From Kingella negevensis (GTDB lineage Bacteria; Pseudomonadota; Gammaproteobacteria; Burkholderiales; Neisseriaceae), in NCBI RefSeq assembly GCF_030177895.1, contig NZ_CP123448.1, forward strand, positions 496,001-560,000: a DNA stretch of 64,000 bases. Direction: 5' to 3'. Numbering within the stretch: position 1 is the stretch's first letter; every line of letters starts with the position of its first letter. This document shows, one piece after another, positions 26,938 to 32,450 of this stretch. The position numbers and the translations under genes were made by a program. The notes beneath the pieces are model-generated. The model was not told where the DNA came from. It did no database searches and was given only the letters and a program-made list of their open reading frames with translations.

Positions 26938-27004
26938 ATTGCCAAAGTCCTTATGTGCTAGATGCACACGGCGGACGTTGTCGCCTTGTCTCATTTTTAT
27001 TTTA
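26938..27004. mobile_element. Truncated Correia-like MITE fragment
   Basis: TTGCCAAAGTCCTTATGTGC through CGGACGTTGTCGCCTTGTCT and CATTTTTATTTTA closely match the inside and right half of the element at 59601-59709. The left terminal repeat is missing, replaced by a DUS (TTTTCAGGCTGCATT), and the right end abuts an IS1-family remnant. Confidence 0.65.
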
Positions 27005-27240
27005 GGTGATATCCTGAAAAGTGTGCTGTAAAACTAAACAATGCCAAAGTGAATATCAAAGAAAGCTAAATCAAAAACTTTCTTATGATAAAACATACTT
27101 TTAGAAAAGCAACACGTTTTTCTAAACGCTCGCCTTACTTTGTGCCGTAAACGACAGTTATTACCCTCAATGCTAACTGTGTGTTGCTTACCAACTAGAT
27201 ACCATTTTTCATATGAGTTGGTAAACGAAATACAAAAGAA
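27005..27240 (-). mobile_element. IS1-family insertion sequence remnant
   Basis: A right end beginning GGTGATATCCTG, like the IS1-family terminal repeat GGTGATGCTGCC, followed by the 3' part of a transposase gene. The left part is gone and an IS5-family element lies 46 bases further on. Confidence 0.65.
27034..27240 (-). pseudogene. IS1-family transposase C-terminal fragment
   Basis: Read leftward, an open frame gives KWYLVGKQHTVSIEGNNCRL, then RHKVRRAFRKTCCFSKSMFY and DLAFFDIHFGIV before a TAG. This is the C-terminal block of IS1-type transposases (HTVSIEGNN, RRAFRKTCCFSK). The first two thirds are missing, so it cannot be active. Confidence 0.7.
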
Positions 27241-27282
27241 GCCTGCACTTTAAATGAGCAAAAGTGCAGGCTGCTTTTTTGT
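27240..27282. terminator. Hairpin with a Kingella-3-type DUS variant
   Basis: AGCCTGCACTTT / AAAGTGCAGGCT stem with a 9-base loop, followed by TTTTTTGTTTT. The right arm contains TGCAGGCTGCTT (27265-27276), reverse complement AAGCAGCCTGCA, which is the DUS dialect reported for another Kingella lineage. It sits between the IS1 remnant and the IS5 element. Confidence 0.55.
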
Positions 27283-27306
27283 TTTAGAACCCGTATTCAC
27301 AAACAA

Positions 27307-27789
27307 CTATTTGATAAATTTTAATATTTGTGAAATATACCCTAGTTTAACAAAATTTTCAGCAGATAAATTCGTCTGCTCAAAATCTTTTGCTAAACGT
27401 CGAGACCAACCTAACCATGCAAACGTTCGTTCTACAATCCAACGTTTGGGCAGAATATGCCAAGAAATATCTTGAATTCTCTTTGAAATCTCAACAGTTA
27501 AACCCAATTGCTCTGATACTTCACGCTCAAATGTATTCCGATAACCTGCGTCCGCACAGAAACCTTTTAAACTCGGATAGGTCTCAAACGCTTTTTTTGC
27601 TACAAAAATACCTGCTTTTGTGTCATGAATATTGGCTGCATGAACCACAACAGACAATAGATTACCCAACGTATCAACAGCTATATGTCGCTTACGACCT
27701 TTGATTTTTTTACCTCCATCAAAACCTTTATCATGTGCGCTAGAAGCTGTTTTGACACTTTGTGAATCAAGAATGGCATAAGTTGGCAT
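27307..27789 (-). pseudogene. IS5-family transposase, catalytic part (orfB)
   Basis: 160 aa from MPTYAILDSQSVKTAS, including the first catalytic Asp (ILDSQSVK), CADAGYRNTFE with the second Asp, and the DDE glutamate in RWIVERTFAWL. The frame continues upstream as RLIHQKQA and needs a -1 shift at the A7 run (T7 on the plus strand, 27814-27820) to join orfA. The catalytic part is intact but depends on a broken orfA. Confidence 0.75.
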
Positions 27790-27816
27790 TGCTTGTTTTT
27801 GATGGATTAAACGTTT

Positions 27817-28070
27817 TTTTGAACCAATGCCAAAAGAATTCTATCCCATAAGCCTGATTGATTGGCTCTGCGATAGAAACTCCATACGGTTGAATAAGGT
27901 GGAAAATCATTGGGCAGCATACGCCATTGGCAACCTGTTTTGGTGATGTACAAAACGGCATTCACTAATTGACGTTTATCCTATTTGTAGTGGCGTAGCT
28001 GGTTAAAATATGGCTCAATCGCTTGCCATTGGGCATCTGTTAAGTCTGTTGGGTAGGATTTTCTAGTCAT
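27817..28070 (-). pseudogene. IS5-family transposase N-terminal part (orfA) with nonsense codon
   Basis: From ATG 28070: MTRKSYPTDLTDAQWQAIEP then YFNQLRHYK and TAG at 27983-27981. Beyond it the same frame continues with the conserved DKRQLVNAVLYITKTGCQWR and FPPYSTVWSFYRRANQSGLW up to the A7 run. The family normally has Trp at the stop position (YKW), so TGG to TAG is the likely change. It breaks the element unless suppressed. Confidence 0.75.
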
Positions 28071-28110
28071 AAGGATATTTTATCATTTTTGTGAATACAG
28101 GTTCTCAATT

Positions 28111-29949
28111 TCAGGCAGCCTGAAACCGTTGATTGAGTACCGCCAACATTTCATTTTCATGCTGCTTTATGATGTCTTCATTCCACTTATCCGCCAATTC
28201 AAACATCAACATCAATTTAAAACTTGGGTTGTCCATATTACTGAAATTGGCTTTTTTCGCGGCTGGCAAATTGTTGGTAAATTTGGAATTGATATTGGAC
28301 GGCAACAAGCACAAATTCCCAAAACTGTGCAACACATTATCAGACAAACGCTGGTGCTGTTCATCGGGATTTTGCGGATAAAAATGTTCCACCGATGTAC
28401 GAAATGCAAAACGGAATTTGTCTTTGTATTGGTTGTATTTTTCGTTTTTCCACAGCAAATAATCCAAACGATTAAAAATAAAATTGGGGATTTGTATGCC
28501 TGTTTCTTTGAAAATTTTTGGGTAAGTTAAATGTTCAGGCAGCCTGAAATTTTCTTGCGTAATCAAATCAAAAAACGCCACCTTTTTATCATTTCCATAA
28601 TACCCAAAATAATAACGGTCGCTTAAATCTTCCAAAAAACGCTGGTAATCGGCAACAGTCGGTTCGGCAGAGCGAAAATACAACCAACGCAACACCGCAT
28701 ACAGCCAGTTTTTGTACACCAAAGATGGTAGCGAAACGTGAAACATAGCCAACAACATTACAATGCTATTTTGTTCATTTTGAATAGAAAAAGTGTTGTC
28801 AAATTGATAACTGCTCTTGTTATACGGCTTAATGGTAAGCAGAGACCAATGGTCATCTTTATTGCTATCGGTTTTAATTACATAACGGTCAAACAAATAA
28901 CGGCATTGGCACAAGGTTTTAGCAAATTGGCAAATTTTTTTCTTATCCCATTCTTCTACTTTGATAGTTTCTAATAATTTGCGTTCATCTAACACAATGT
29001 TTTTTGCATTTTCCACATCGCCTGTTTCCTTTTCTACAAAAATACGCAAAACGTGCATTAAAAAGTTAGGAAAATCAATTACAGAATGAAAACGCTCTGA
29101 TGTTTCTTGTTGTTCATCTTTTCCGTCTGATTGACTTGCTTCAAATTTATTTTCAATCAATTGAAGAATGGTTGTAGAAACATCAGATTCTTTTGCAGAA
29201 AAAGCCTGCTTAATACTATCGGAATTTAATTGAAATTCTTGGTAATTGTTACCAAAAATTGCCTTTCTTGCTGCTGGCTTAAATCCTAAAACCATATAGC
29301 GATTCATATCAGAGCAAGCGTCCCAACTTTGCGAAAAAGCCTCTTGCATTCGTGATGTTGCATGGCAATCATTCAAACAGCTTAATAATCGCGCTTTTAA
29401 AATCTCGTGTTTTTCCAATTGTTCGCCGCGCGTGTTCATGATTTCAAAATAATGATTCAAATCGGTTTTCGGCGGCATTTCGGTGCGGATAATGTACACA
29501 TTGTCCAAAATAAATTGAGCAAATTTTACCGAATATTCAGGCAGCCAATTTTGCTTAATCGCTTTTAAGGCTGCCTGAAAATGTTCGGGCAACTGATTGG
29601 GTTGATGTAAATGAGCGGCAAAATCTTGGCGATGTTCAAACGAAATATTGGGCTTGTCAGCAAGATTCAGGCTACCTGAAAATTGATTGCGTAATTGATG
29701 CGCCAGTAATGTGAATGTGGTTAAACGCTGCTGTCCATCAATCACTTCCAGTAACGCATTCTCGCGGCGATAAACCACCAAGCTGCCAATGTAATAATGC
29801 TCGCTTTGGCGTTGAAACGCCTGATACATATCGCTTAACAAAGGGCTAATTTCTTTATCTGTCCACGCATAATTGCGTTGATAAATGGGAATAATATAGC
29901 GGTCTTGATGAAGTAATTGGAAAATTGAAAGGGTTAATTCTTGACTCAT
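28111..29949 (-). CDS. DUF262 protein with C-terminal DUF1524 (HNH-type) domain
   Basis: 612 aa. The N-terminal DUF262 domain has IPIYQRNYAW and the hallmark LLEVIDGQQRLTTFTLLAHQ. The C-terminal DUF1524 nuclease-type domain has TSVEHFYPQN, HSFGNLCLLPSNINSKFTN. This domain pair is found in GmrSD/SspE-like modification-dependent restriction proteins. ATG 29949 overlaps the stop of the upstream DUF262 gene (ATGA), and longer starts lie inside that gene. The C-terminus QRFQAA and the stop come from a DUS. Target and activity are unknown; restriction or defence is inference. Confidence 0.85.
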   Translation of the reverse strand: MSQELTLSIFQLLHQDRYIIPIYQRNYAWTDKEISPLLSDMYQAFQRQSEHYYIGSLVVYRRENALLEVIDGQQRLTTFTLLAHQLRNQFSGSLNLADKPNISFEHRQDFAAHLHQPNQLPEHFQAALKAIKQNWLPEYSVKFAQFILDNVYIIRTEMPPKTDLNHYFEIMNTRGEQLEKHEILKARLLSCLNDCHATSRMQEAFSQSWDACSDMNRYMVLGFKPAARKAIFGNNYQEFQLNSDSIKQAFSAKESDVSTTILQLIENKFEASQSDGKDEQQETSERFHSVIDFPNFLMHVLRIFVEKETGDVENAKNIVLDERKLLETIKVEEWDKKKICQFAKTLCQCRYLFDRYVIKTDSNKDDHWSLLTIKPYNKSSYQFDNTFSIQNEQNSIVMLLAMFHVSLPSLVYKNWLYAVLRWLYFRSAEPTVADYQRFLEDLSDRYYFGYYGNDKKVAFFDLITQENFRLPEHLTYPKIFKETGIQIPNFIFNRLDYLLWKNEKYNQYKDKFRFAFRTSVEHFYPQNPDEQHQRLSDNVLHSFGNLCLLPSNINSKFTNNLPAAKKANFSNMDNPSFKLMLMFELADKWNEDIIKQHENEMLAVLNQRFQAA

Positions 29950-31217
29950 TTTGTTTTTTCCACGCCTAAAATTTGAAATAGGGTTGAATACACATTGCTG
30001 TAACGTACTTCGTTGGGCTGCAAAATTGGGTTGATGTATTGCCACACATCGCTAGGCTGTTTGGCGCGTTGTATGCACACCAGTAAACCTTTGATGTGGT
30101 TGGCGTAATTATCCACGCTGGCAAATTCAATGCGTTGATACGTCAAACGCATTTGATACACCCACACAAAAATTTTCCGAATTACCCTATCTAGCTGTAT
30201 TTCGCCAAATTTATCCACATACAACAAAACGGTGCATTCAAATAATTGCCGTAAAAAACTCATGCCTTTGCCTGTGCCGTGATGATGTTGTAAATAATCG
30301 TGAATGTCGGCAAGCGATGAAATTTGGCTTAACTTGCCTGTGTGTTTATCAAAAATGTGCCGATAGTGGTCGCGATAATATTCAATAAAATCAAAAAAAT
30401 ATTTGCCATTAAGCAGCACTTGATTGATTTGAAAGGCTGCCTGAATATGCGGATAGGCAAATTTGGTCGCCATTAAATAGGGGTAATGCTGCTGGCTGGA
30501 TACGCCTTTAAATGTGTCTAATTGCTGAATGGTAAAGTGTTCGCCCGATTCGCGCTCGTGCCAACGTCGTAGCGGAAACAGCGTTTTACTGATGATTTTG
30601 TGCAAATTGATTTCCTGTGGCGACAATAACGCGGTGTGTTCCCAACGCTCTACACAAGGGAAAATTTGGCTTTCAGGCAGCCTGCATTGCTGCATTTCGC
30701 GTAAATGATAGGCTTTGAGCAAATCGTAAGGTTCAAGCGGTTTGCCACGCGCATTTTGTGAATCAAAAAATTGAAATGCTTCGTCCAAATTATCCAAAGT
30801 AACACACACCATTTCACACGTTTGCAAAATGTAATTGGCAAAATTTTGTTTATTTTCAATGAAATTTTCACGACAATAATGTTGAATAAATTGATAATTT
30901 TGTACCACATTGTGTTGGCTAGTGCTGTGATTGAGTTTTTCAGCCAGCAAACCATTTTGTTTACCTGTGAGTGCGTACACAATTAGGGAAAGCGTAATAA
31001 GACGTTGTTGTCCATCCACAATTTCGTGGCGCGATGAATCGTTGTGCAATACGACTGTGCCAATGCGATATATGATGTTGTTTTCGTGATGATGTTGTAA
31101 ATCTTGCAAGAGCTGCAAAATGTGTTTGGCTTGCCATTTGTAGGGGCGTTGGTAATGCGGTATGTGTAACGGAAGTTGGAAAATAGATTGAATGGCGTGG
31201 ATTTGACAGTTATGCAT
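29946..31217 (-). CDS. DUF262 protein without nuclease domain
   Basis: 423 aa. N-terminal HYQRPYKWQ and HEIVDGQQRLITLSLIVYAL give the DUF262 (ParB/Srx-like) motif; FFDSQNARGKPLEPYDLLKA matches the 'NxRGxxLxxxDLLKA' block of the family. The remainder is helical, Tyr/His-rich, with no HNH motif that I can see. ATG 31217 is chosen because GGAAA precedes it. It overlaps its nuclease-bearing partner by four bases, suggesting a fixed-ratio two-protein system. Confidence 0.82.
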   Translation of the reverse strand: MHNCQIHAIQSIFQLPLHIPHYQRPYKWQAKHILQLLQDLQHHHENNIIYRIGTVVLHNDSSRHEIVDGQQRLITLSLIVYALTGKQNGLLAEKLNHSTSQHNVVQNYQFIQHYCRENFIENKQNFANYILQTCEMVCVTLDNLDEAFQFFDSQNARGKPLEPYDLLKAYHLREMQQCRLPESQIFPCVERWEHTALLSPQEINLHKIISKTLFPLRRWHERESGEHFTIQQLDTFKGVSSQQHYPYLMATKFAYPHIQAAFQINQVLLNGKYFFDFIEYYRDHYRHIFDKHTGKLSQISSLADIHDYLQHHHGTGKGMSFLRQLFECTVLLYVDKFGEIQLDRVIRKIFVWVYQMRLTYQRIEFASVDNYANHIKGLLVCIQRAKQPSDVWQYINPILQPNEVRYSNVYSTLFQILGVEKTK

Positions 31218-31231
31218 GATATTTCCTTTTT

Positions 31232-31612
31232 TCAGGCAGCCTGAACACAAACCACGCTGCAATCATCGTAAAATTCGCCCAATTTGACCGCACGGCGCAA
31301 TTCTTCCAATTTTGCCACCAAATCGGTATCGCAAAAACACCCAAAATTCCGCGTAAAAAATGCACGTTCACACGCGCCATTGTCCGCCCACGCATTGACC
31401 CAAAAACGGCTGGCTAAATGCGGTTGTTCGCTGCTGTAAACGCCGTCTGCCACCGCCACGCGAATCGGGCTGCCTGAAACTTCTACAATCCGCGGTTTGT
31501 TCATTTTGGCGTGTTTGGCTTCCGCGCCGTTGAATAATGCGTCTTGGTTGCGTGATTTGTTGCGTCCGCACATTTGAAAATACGCTGTTTGGAAAATCAT
31601 GTTTTTGCTCAC
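31232..31612 (-). CDS. Shortened PP2C-type phosphatase-like protein
   Basis: 126 aa (start GTG 31612, or ATG 31600 giving MIFQTAYFQMCGRN). Parts of the PP2C fold are recognisable: R-N-Q-D-A-L-F around 21-27, VAVADGVYSS with the metal-binding Asp at about 56, and YDDCSVVCV at the end, like the last PP2C Asp motif. The middle of a normal domain (more than 100 residues, including the GDS region) is missing, so it may be a deletion derivative or not a phosphatase. It ends in DUS-encoded VQAA, 14 bases before the DUF262 start. The IS on the other side removed its native upstream region. Confidence 0.55.
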   Translation of the reverse strand: MSKNMIFQTAYFQMCGRNKSRNQDALFNGAEAKHAKMNKPRIVEVSGSPIRVAVADGVYSSEQPHLASRFWVNAWADNGACERAFFTRNFGCFCDTDLVAKLEELRRAVKLGEFYDDCSVVCVQAA

Positions 31613-31633
31613 TTAAAAATTATTGGGGCTGTC

Positions 31634-32446
31634 CTAGGGGCTATTGACAATTCAAAAAAAGAGGCAAAGGATTTAAGATATTGTTTCCACACAACCATCC
31701 TAAACCTTTGCCATGTCCCGAAACACGCTTACAAATGAAACATGGTCAAGACTGTTACCTATTTTGAAACAGCTTGGCATTTATCGCAAGAAAAATTTAC
31801 GCAAAACAGTAGAAGGTATCCTGTTTCGCTTACGTACAGGCTGCCAATGGGCTGATATACCTAGTTATTTTGGTAAAGCAAACAGCCTTTACCAAAGTTT
31901 CAATCGCTGGTCTAAACGCGGTATTTTTACCAAATTATTTAAACATTTGGCAGATACACCCGATATGGAATGGGTCTTTATGGACGGTAGTCATATCCGT
32001 GTTCATCAACACGGCATGGGTAAAAAATCCATTGTGCATCAAGCTGTCGGTAAGAGTATCGGAGGTCATACGTCTAAAATTCATTTAGCGGTTGATGCTT
32101 GTGGTAATCCAATTGAATTTATGATTACAGCTGGTAATGTAAATGAGATTGTTGTTGCGCCTGATTTATTGGCACAATTGGACTTAAGTGATAATGAAAC
32201 CGTGTGTGCTGATAGGGGTTTTGACAGTGATACTTTTCGTCGGTTAATTCATTCTAAACAAAGTAAAGCCAATATTCCATATAAGAAAAGTAGAGAACAT
32301 CTTAATGTGGACACAGATTGGTATTTATATAAAATCAGGCACTTGGTAGAAAATGCTTTTGCACGATTAAAGCATTTTCGTGCGCTGGCAACACGGTACG
32401 ATAAATTAAAACGTAATTATGAAAGTACCGTGTCATTAGCCCCTAG
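31634..32446 (+). mobile_element. IS5-family insertion sequence, apparently intact
   Basis: Inverted repeats GGGCTATTGACA (left) and GGGCTAATGACA (right, reverse complement), each bordered by CTAG (31634-31637 and 32443-32446), which may be the target duplication or part of the repeats. It contains one full transposase gene. The left end lies 22 bp upstream of the PP2C-like start. Confidence 0.8.
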
Positions 32447-32450
32447 CTAA
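31713..32450 (+). CDS. IS5-family transposase
   Basis: 245 aa, single frame. N-terminal helix-turn-helix region RLLPILKQLGIYRKK and GCQWADIPSYFGKANSLYQS; DDE residues visible in FMDGSHIRVHQHG, CADRGFDSDTF and HLVENAFARLKHFRA. The last residues (SLAPS) and the TAA run through the right inverted repeat. No frameshift or stop, so it may be active. Confidence 0.9.
   Translation: MSRNTLTNETWSRLLPILKQLGIYRKKNLRKTVEGILFRLRTGCQWADIPSYFGKANSLYQSFNRWSKRGIFTKLFKHLADTPDMEWVFMDGSHIRVHQHGMGKKSIVHQAVGKSIGGHTSKIHLAVDACGNPIEFMITAGNVNEIVVAPDLLAQLDLSDNETVCADRGFDSDTFRRLIHSKQSKANIPYKKSREHLNVDTDWYLYKIRHLVENAFARLKHFRALATRYDKLKRNYESTVSLAPS

Follow-up and report, generated by a model that had tools for sequence, protein, structure and literature searches.

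What do the three adjacent genes between two insertion sequence (IS) elements encode in a 64,000-nucleotide stretch of Kingella negevensis DNA (contig NZ_CP123448.1, positions 496,001 to 560,000; hereafter, the window), and does their arrangement have a name? An earlier note on this DNA had described a shortened PP2C-like gene, followed by two DUF262 genes, as an arrangement that could not be named. Based on domains, motifs, and gene order, the two DUF262 genes very probably encode a TgvAB-type two-protein type IV restriction system of the GmrSD family, fronted by a dead PP2C relic, and the unnamed cassette would now belong to an established type of system, with a decayed gene next to it. The three open reading frames (ORFs) all lie on the minus strand:

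31232-31612, minus strand: PP2C remnant, 126 amino acids (aa) with the GTG start, 122 aa with a start at the ATG of 31600
29946-31217, minus strand: tgvA-like gene (gene A), 423 aa, DUF262 (GmrSD_N) and DUF7834, nuclease domain not found
28111-29949, minus strand: tgvB-like gene (gene B), 612 aa, DUF262 and DUF1524 (GmrSD_C) His-Me nuclease

The stop codon of the PP2C remnant lies 14 bases ahead of the tgvA ATG, and the tgvA stop and tgvB ATG overlap by 4 bases. The positions, order, and strand of the genes, this spacing and overlap, and the fencing of the block by two different IS5-family elements had all been described in the earlier note and were borne out by the ORFs, Pfam domains, matches to the NCBIfam transposase model NF033580, and inverted repeats.

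Domains, motifs, and folds of the TgvAB-type pair

The tgvA product combines an N-terminal GmrSD_N (DUF262) domain (Pfam, E-value 5.1e-30) with a C-terminal DUF7834 domain (1.2e-56), and the tgvB product combines GmrSD_N (6.4e-31) with a C-terminal GmrSD_C (DUF1524) domain (3.5e-16). The cassette therefore holds adjacent genes for two DUF262 proteins, of which only the second ends in a DUF1524 nuclease. Because this two-chain architecture is that of TgvAB, as set out in its published account (PMC11411939), the arrangement of the pair was already known and named. That account names QR, DGQQR, and FxxxN motifs together with His-Me nuclease residues. In TgvA, the corresponding Q23 R24, D68GQQR72, and F151..N155 are invariant in 17 aligned rows; in TgvB, Q24 R25, D71GQQR75, and F168..N172, as well as the nuclease residues H522, N545, and N554, are present in 42/42 aligned rows, the window included. 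TgvB follows directly behind TgvA in 19/22 loci found by the TgvA profile, and in the other three (L017, L018, L022), where TgvB was not seen, the available stretch ends within or soon after TgvA. The predicted TgvA model (predicted local distance difference test [pLDDT] score 82.0) has as its best PDB match DndI (9jfl; E-value 3.7e-7, template modelling [TM] score 0.53), followed by SspE (1.8e-5, TM 0.30) and BrxU (0.03, TM 0.24), and the TgvB model (pLDDT 81.2) matches SspE (2.7e-6, TM 0.27). Homologues adjoin the type I genes HsdR/HsdM/HsdS in three loci (L007, L016, L019), and the type I-associated homologues in L007 and L016 served as the yardstick of homology in place of the V. cholerae proteins; those in L016 share 38% identity with TgvA (residues 3-404) and 36% with TgvB (residues 7-605).

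The V. cholerae VPI-2 system is described as a GmrSD-family system made of two proteins, neither of which suffices alone, and its targets are phages whose DNA is hypermodified (PMC11411939). By analogy, the window pair would restrict phages, require both of its proteins, and target modified cytosines. TgvA and TgvB would probably be translated together, the nucleotide-handling DUF262 sensor domains of both proteins may sense incoming DNA with modified cytosines, and the C-terminal His-Me nuclease of TgvB would then cut it. The two-protein modification sensor proposed in the earlier note thus stands as a prediction and loses its novelty, given that TgvAB had already been named and tested.

Several observations weigh against this assignment or against the PP2C gene as part of it. 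Identity to the type I-associated TgvAB proteins is just ~36–38%, so the recognized modification may differ, and the fold matches have low TM-scores, DndI excepted. Because the right IS element begins at 31634, just upstream of the cassette, the native promoter may have been removed, and expression is only predicted; a consensus scan found 20 promoter-like sites against 16.4 (standard deviation 3.9) in shuffled sequences. (Terminator-like sites in a similar scan numbered 5, against 5.8 in shuffles.) The nearest TgvB relatives, from Avibacterium gallinarum (L002) and L075 (51% identity), have no PP2C nearby. Finally, the joint search suggested in the earlier note drew a blank within Neisseriaceae, where 3 of 83 genomes are TgvA-positive and a PP2C match was found in 0/3 of these.

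Recurrence of PP2C beside TgvAB and other DUF262 genes

Outside Neisseriaceae, the same search had the opposite outcome: the neighbourhood of PP2C and TgvAB is recurrent, far above random placement. Of 140 Pasteurellaceae genomes, 16 carry TgvA and 37 carry PP2C; in 11 of the TgvA-positive ones, the two lie no more than 3 kilobases (kb) apart (expected at random placement: 0.055). Two of these 11 PP2C copies are broken, one decayed (G001) and one with an internal stop (G016). Of 249 Moraxellaceae genomes, 30 carry TgvA and 68 carry PP2C; the distance between them is at most 10 kb in 16/30 (expected: 0.149) and at most 3 kb in 10/30. The Fisher values that go with these counts treat the genomes as unrelated. 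TgvA is scattered in all three families (16/140, 30/249, and 3/83 genomes), and the idea that the DUF262 genes are housekeeping neighbours was rejected on this ground.

Using a curated Pfam DUF262 query, a count free of the bias of our own profiles, 20 of 84 DUF262 clusters in the 140 Pasteurellaceae genomes were found within 5 kb of PP2C (expected: 0.22). Among clusters that have at least two matches, 11/16 are near PP2C, compared to 9/68 of the single ones. The remaining 64/84 lie away from PP2C, which weighs against a functional link. On a quick tree of TgvB (42 rows, including rows L100-L113, which were added because PP2C is near), the PP2C-neighbour label changes 7 times, compared to 13.0 in shuffles, and well-supported branches force at least 4 changes, which implies several gains or losses of the association.

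PP2C islands and the exchangeable nuclease slot

The islands around PP2C differ between families. In Pasteurellaceae, the order is, with variations, a WYL regulator, an NT5C nucleotidase, Sir2, in some cases a gene that we take to be RhuM (the label on our locus maps; the LRR family name on these maps is from Pfam), a Sir2-PP2C pair, a slot, and a two-domain AAA ATPase. Sir2 lies within 5 kb of PP2C in 31/37 of these loci. In Moraxellaceae, PP2C is followed by WYL (adjacent and on the same strand in 25/42 loci) and then by genes of unknown function, often DUF1810. This PP2C-WYL setting with DUF1810 was seen at L105, L107, L108, L111, L116, L129, L134, L159, L160, and L162-L166; these cassettes often include a ~210-aa family without a Pfam match (e.g., L111:8749-9387), and several carry a PD-(D/E)XK_4 nuclease of a family that resembles the PADLOC candidate PDC-S26. 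At L063 (7414-8733), an ADP-ribosylglycohydrolase fragment directly follows PP2C, a further link to nicotinamide adenine dinucleotide (NAD) and ADP-ribose besides Sir2.

In Pasteurellaceae, the island is modular, with near-identical flanks around unrelated contents at one site (L008, L050, L052, L053) and at another (L048, L068, L069). For example, L052 and L053 are ~90% identical on both sides of a slot that holds a PD-(D/E)XK_4 nuclease in one and an Mrr-type nuclease in the other; the same kind of exchange separates L053 from L050, which has a GmrSD_N protein, and at L048 and L069 Mrr is exchanged for TgvAB. Other occupants include single-chain GmrSD (L054, L055, L060) and, at L057, two GmrSD_N genes of larger size, and McrBC stands beside PP2C at L062 and, by family, also at L119. 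McrC has only 4 matches in 3 of the 140 Pasteurellaceae genomes, one of them ~2 kb from PP2C.

PP2C has a type IV-like nuclease gene within 5 kb at 29/37 Pasteurellaceae, 26/42 Moraxellaceae, and 1/5 Neisseriaceae loci, compared to 0/19 control stretches; the nuclease profiles used for this count were built in part from the same loci, which makes the control partly circular. PD-(D/E)XK_4 was counted as type IV-like by choice, and without it the counts become 23/37 and 16/42. The Moraxellaceae survey covers the 42 PP2C matches with E-values <1e-18 (weaker matches were left out) and the Neisseriaceae survey 5 of 8 strong matches; the PP2C of L044, judged by its neighbours to be of an unrelated type, was left out of the count.

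A possible control step or a shared hotspot

A host whose own DNA becomes modified can be put at risk by its type IV restriction enzymes, and to our knowledge little is known about how these enzymes are held in check. We tentatively propose that PP2C, together with WYL in Moraxellaceae or with Sir2 and the AAA ATPase in Pasteurellaceae, may form a control chassis for nucleases that replace one another and mostly depend on modification (TgvAB, single-chain GmrSD, Mrr, McrBC, PD-(D/E)XK), setting when these are made or active, and that the Kingella window may be a relic of this arrangement, TgvAB having persisted after its controller was lost. Where the locus is intact, the expression or activity of the slot nuclease would then be the target of PP2C together with WYL or Sir2. 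We count in favour of this idea that 71/79 loci retain a PP2C ORF no shorter than 220 aa, that WYL regulators of defence loci have been described in the part of the literature covered, and that CapK/CapS offers a precedent. If the proposal is true, type IV restriction would be controlled through phosphorylation and possibly in an NAD-linked manner. With PP2C next to nucleases of several unrelated families, and these exchanged in one slot at a single chromosomal site, a common control step can be tested directly, and PP2C may help to find further nucleases that depend on modification.

A shared island may suffice to explain this pattern, and for that reason we regard the control idea as somewhat short of probable. 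PP2C, Sir2, WYL, and restriction genes could simply share a hotspot and be swapped by homologous recombination with no functional link, so that PP2C would merely mark defence islands; this explanation, too, is a serious candidate that falls a little below even chances. The swaps at a fixed site between near-identical flanks (L052/L053, L050/L053, L048/L069) are what natural transformation would produce. In addition, our own profiles found no restriction gene within 5 kb of PP2C at 8/37 Pasteurellaceae, 12/42 Moraxellaceae, and 4/5 examined Neisseriaceae loci, and the orientation of PP2C relative to TgvAB varies in Moraxellaceae, which speaks against a functional link. However, a mere hotspot fits less well with the kind of neighbour found in Pasteurellaceae, where lone nucleases rather than type I genes accompany PP2C (29 vs 0 of 37, with profiles built partly from these loci). 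Gaps between PP2C and the nuclease are often operon-like (14–80 bp, e.g., at L004, L008, L048, L049, L050, L052, L053, L062, L069, and L070), and Sir2 and PP2C overlap by one base in 10 of the 30 close pairs listed. The retention of the PP2C frame noted above points in the same direction.

The PP2C-like remnant in the window

The window's own PP2C-like ORF has no match at E-values ≤1 in Pfam, PADLOC, or NCBIfam and was recognized solely via full-length relatives (E-value 3.7e-25 with a PP2C profile from related islands). It keeps the N-terminal segments RNQDALF, VADGV, HLASRFW, and FCDT (with the NQD and ADG motifs) and the C-terminal tail KLE..RRAVK..DDCSV (with the DD motif), whereas ~120 internal residues that contain GSSSTF, GDSR, and SDG in its relatives are missing. 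The combination of metal-binding aspartates with a GDSR/SDG core that marks a PP2C phosphatase is therefore absent from the window copy. The nearest intact counterpart gene in the alignment, 247 aa long, comes from Neisseriaceae genomes that lack TgvA (L038, L039). A naturally short PP2C family was rejected given these full-length relatives; the gene is PP2C-like and shortened, as the earlier note had it, through the deletion of an internal block.

Judged from its sequence, the window PP2C is probably a dead, internally deleted gene. Due to the loss of GDSR and SDG, an active regulator is unlikely here, and TgvAB would act without PP2C; the PP2C-type regulator once suggested for this locus thus finds its backing in the recurrence of PP2C beside TgvAB and other nucleases in Pasteurellaceae and Moraxellaceae and not in the window copy. 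The remnant suggests that the locus derives from a PP2C-nuclease arrangement, which other families have kept intact. Our own profiles (E-values ≤0.01) found no match to Sir2, WYL, AAA, NT5C, or DUF1810 elsewhere in the window.

The short protein could instead be a functional truncated phosphatase or pseudo-phosphatase that binds TgvA, TgvB, or a phosphoprotein. Its frame is open across the deletion, a nearly unchanged copy (96%) exists in P0001, a cluster of 10 sequences, and it lies 14 bp from tgvA. Yet about half of the PP2C protein is gone, including both core motifs, another relative (P0002) has an unrelated N-terminus and P0003 a different internal gap, and as a query the stub yielded only 4 homologues among 8 candidates, one of them with a scrambled start. 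We consider a functional stub improbable and retain the decayed gene as the preferred reading.

IS elements and history of the cassette

The cassette is flanked by two elements that each combine an IS5 transposase (NF033580) with terminal inverted repeats:

31634-32446, plus strand: right IS5-family element, NF033580 match at E-value 7.6e-74, terminal inverted repeats, one open transposase frame
27286-28105, minus strand: left, different IS5-family element, NF033580 match, terminal inverted repeats, broken transposase

The right element encodes a 245-aa transposase in a single open frame (31713-32450), has CTAG at each end, and lies 21 bp upstream of the GTG of the PP2C remnant; the left one lies 5 bp downstream of the tgvB stop, with its transposase split by stops and a frame change. 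Although both elements lie within 5–21 bp of the cassette genes, a composite transposon that carries the three genes as a mobile cassette is very improbable and was rejected, because the elements differ, occur as single copies in the window, and include a decayed left transposase, and because CTAG at both ends of the right element fits independent insertion; of the IS-bracketed cassette in the earlier note, the geometry remains. Between coaBC and the left element (26950-27285), a terminator-like inverted repeat was seen at 27228-27284.

The cassette is AT-rich (39.7% G+C compared to 46.3% for the rest of the window), and the closest database match of the tgvA product, 99% identical, is from Kingella negevensis. 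With what we take to be the Kingella-type DNA uptake motif, 5 of the 38 distinct sites in the window fall inside the cassette (P = 0.045), which slightly favours a long residence in a Kingella-type genome. Palindromic pairs of this motif were seen at 28110-28124, 28534-28548, and 31231-31245. A search for the empty site via the flanking genes placed these ~175 kb apart in the nearest genome (G104), and the insertion site is therefore not readable from it; maps of L092-L097 contributed nothing further.

Comparison with known systems

Literature searches for PP2C with GmrSD or with 'type IV restriction' found no publication, and the top-ranked results of broader searches did not describe a PP2C-nuclease arrangement in titles or abstract openings. 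In a study of GmrSD neighbourhoods (PMC4619093), the part of Table 1 that was available lists neither PP2C nor Sir2, and a mention among the 169 enriched domains of its additional file is possible; the accessible part of PMC9503650 contains neither PP2C nor DUF1810. Within the reach of these searches, the PP2C-nuclease association beyond the window is new.

Among regulators, the closest parallel in the literature covered is CapK/CapS, two regulators encoded upstream of various immune operons (PMC13373217). Both place a phospho-signalling gene beside many different defence genes (in our loci, PP2C with WYL or Sir2); unlike CapK, a kinase, and CapS, a STAS-like repressor, PP2C is a phosphatase.

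Single-chain GmrSD, SspE, BrxU, DndI, and HEC-06 share DUF262 and mostly GmrSD_C with the window pair and give its best fold or profile matches. SspE and DndI work with phosphorothioation systems. Unlike all of these single chains, the window divides sensor and sensor-nuclease between two chains.

The likeness is greatest to TgvAB of V. cholerae, for which 1,341 hits among 41,142 genomes are reported (PMC11411939). There, as in the window, the genes are adjacent, TgvA carries DUF262 without a nuclease, TgvB carries DUF262 and DUF1524, and the motifs are the same. Unlike the V. cholerae system, the window pair has no adjoining type I restriction-modification genes, has a PP2C remnant ahead of it, and is divergent in sequence; it is best described as a new TgvAB whose PP2C neighbour is broken.

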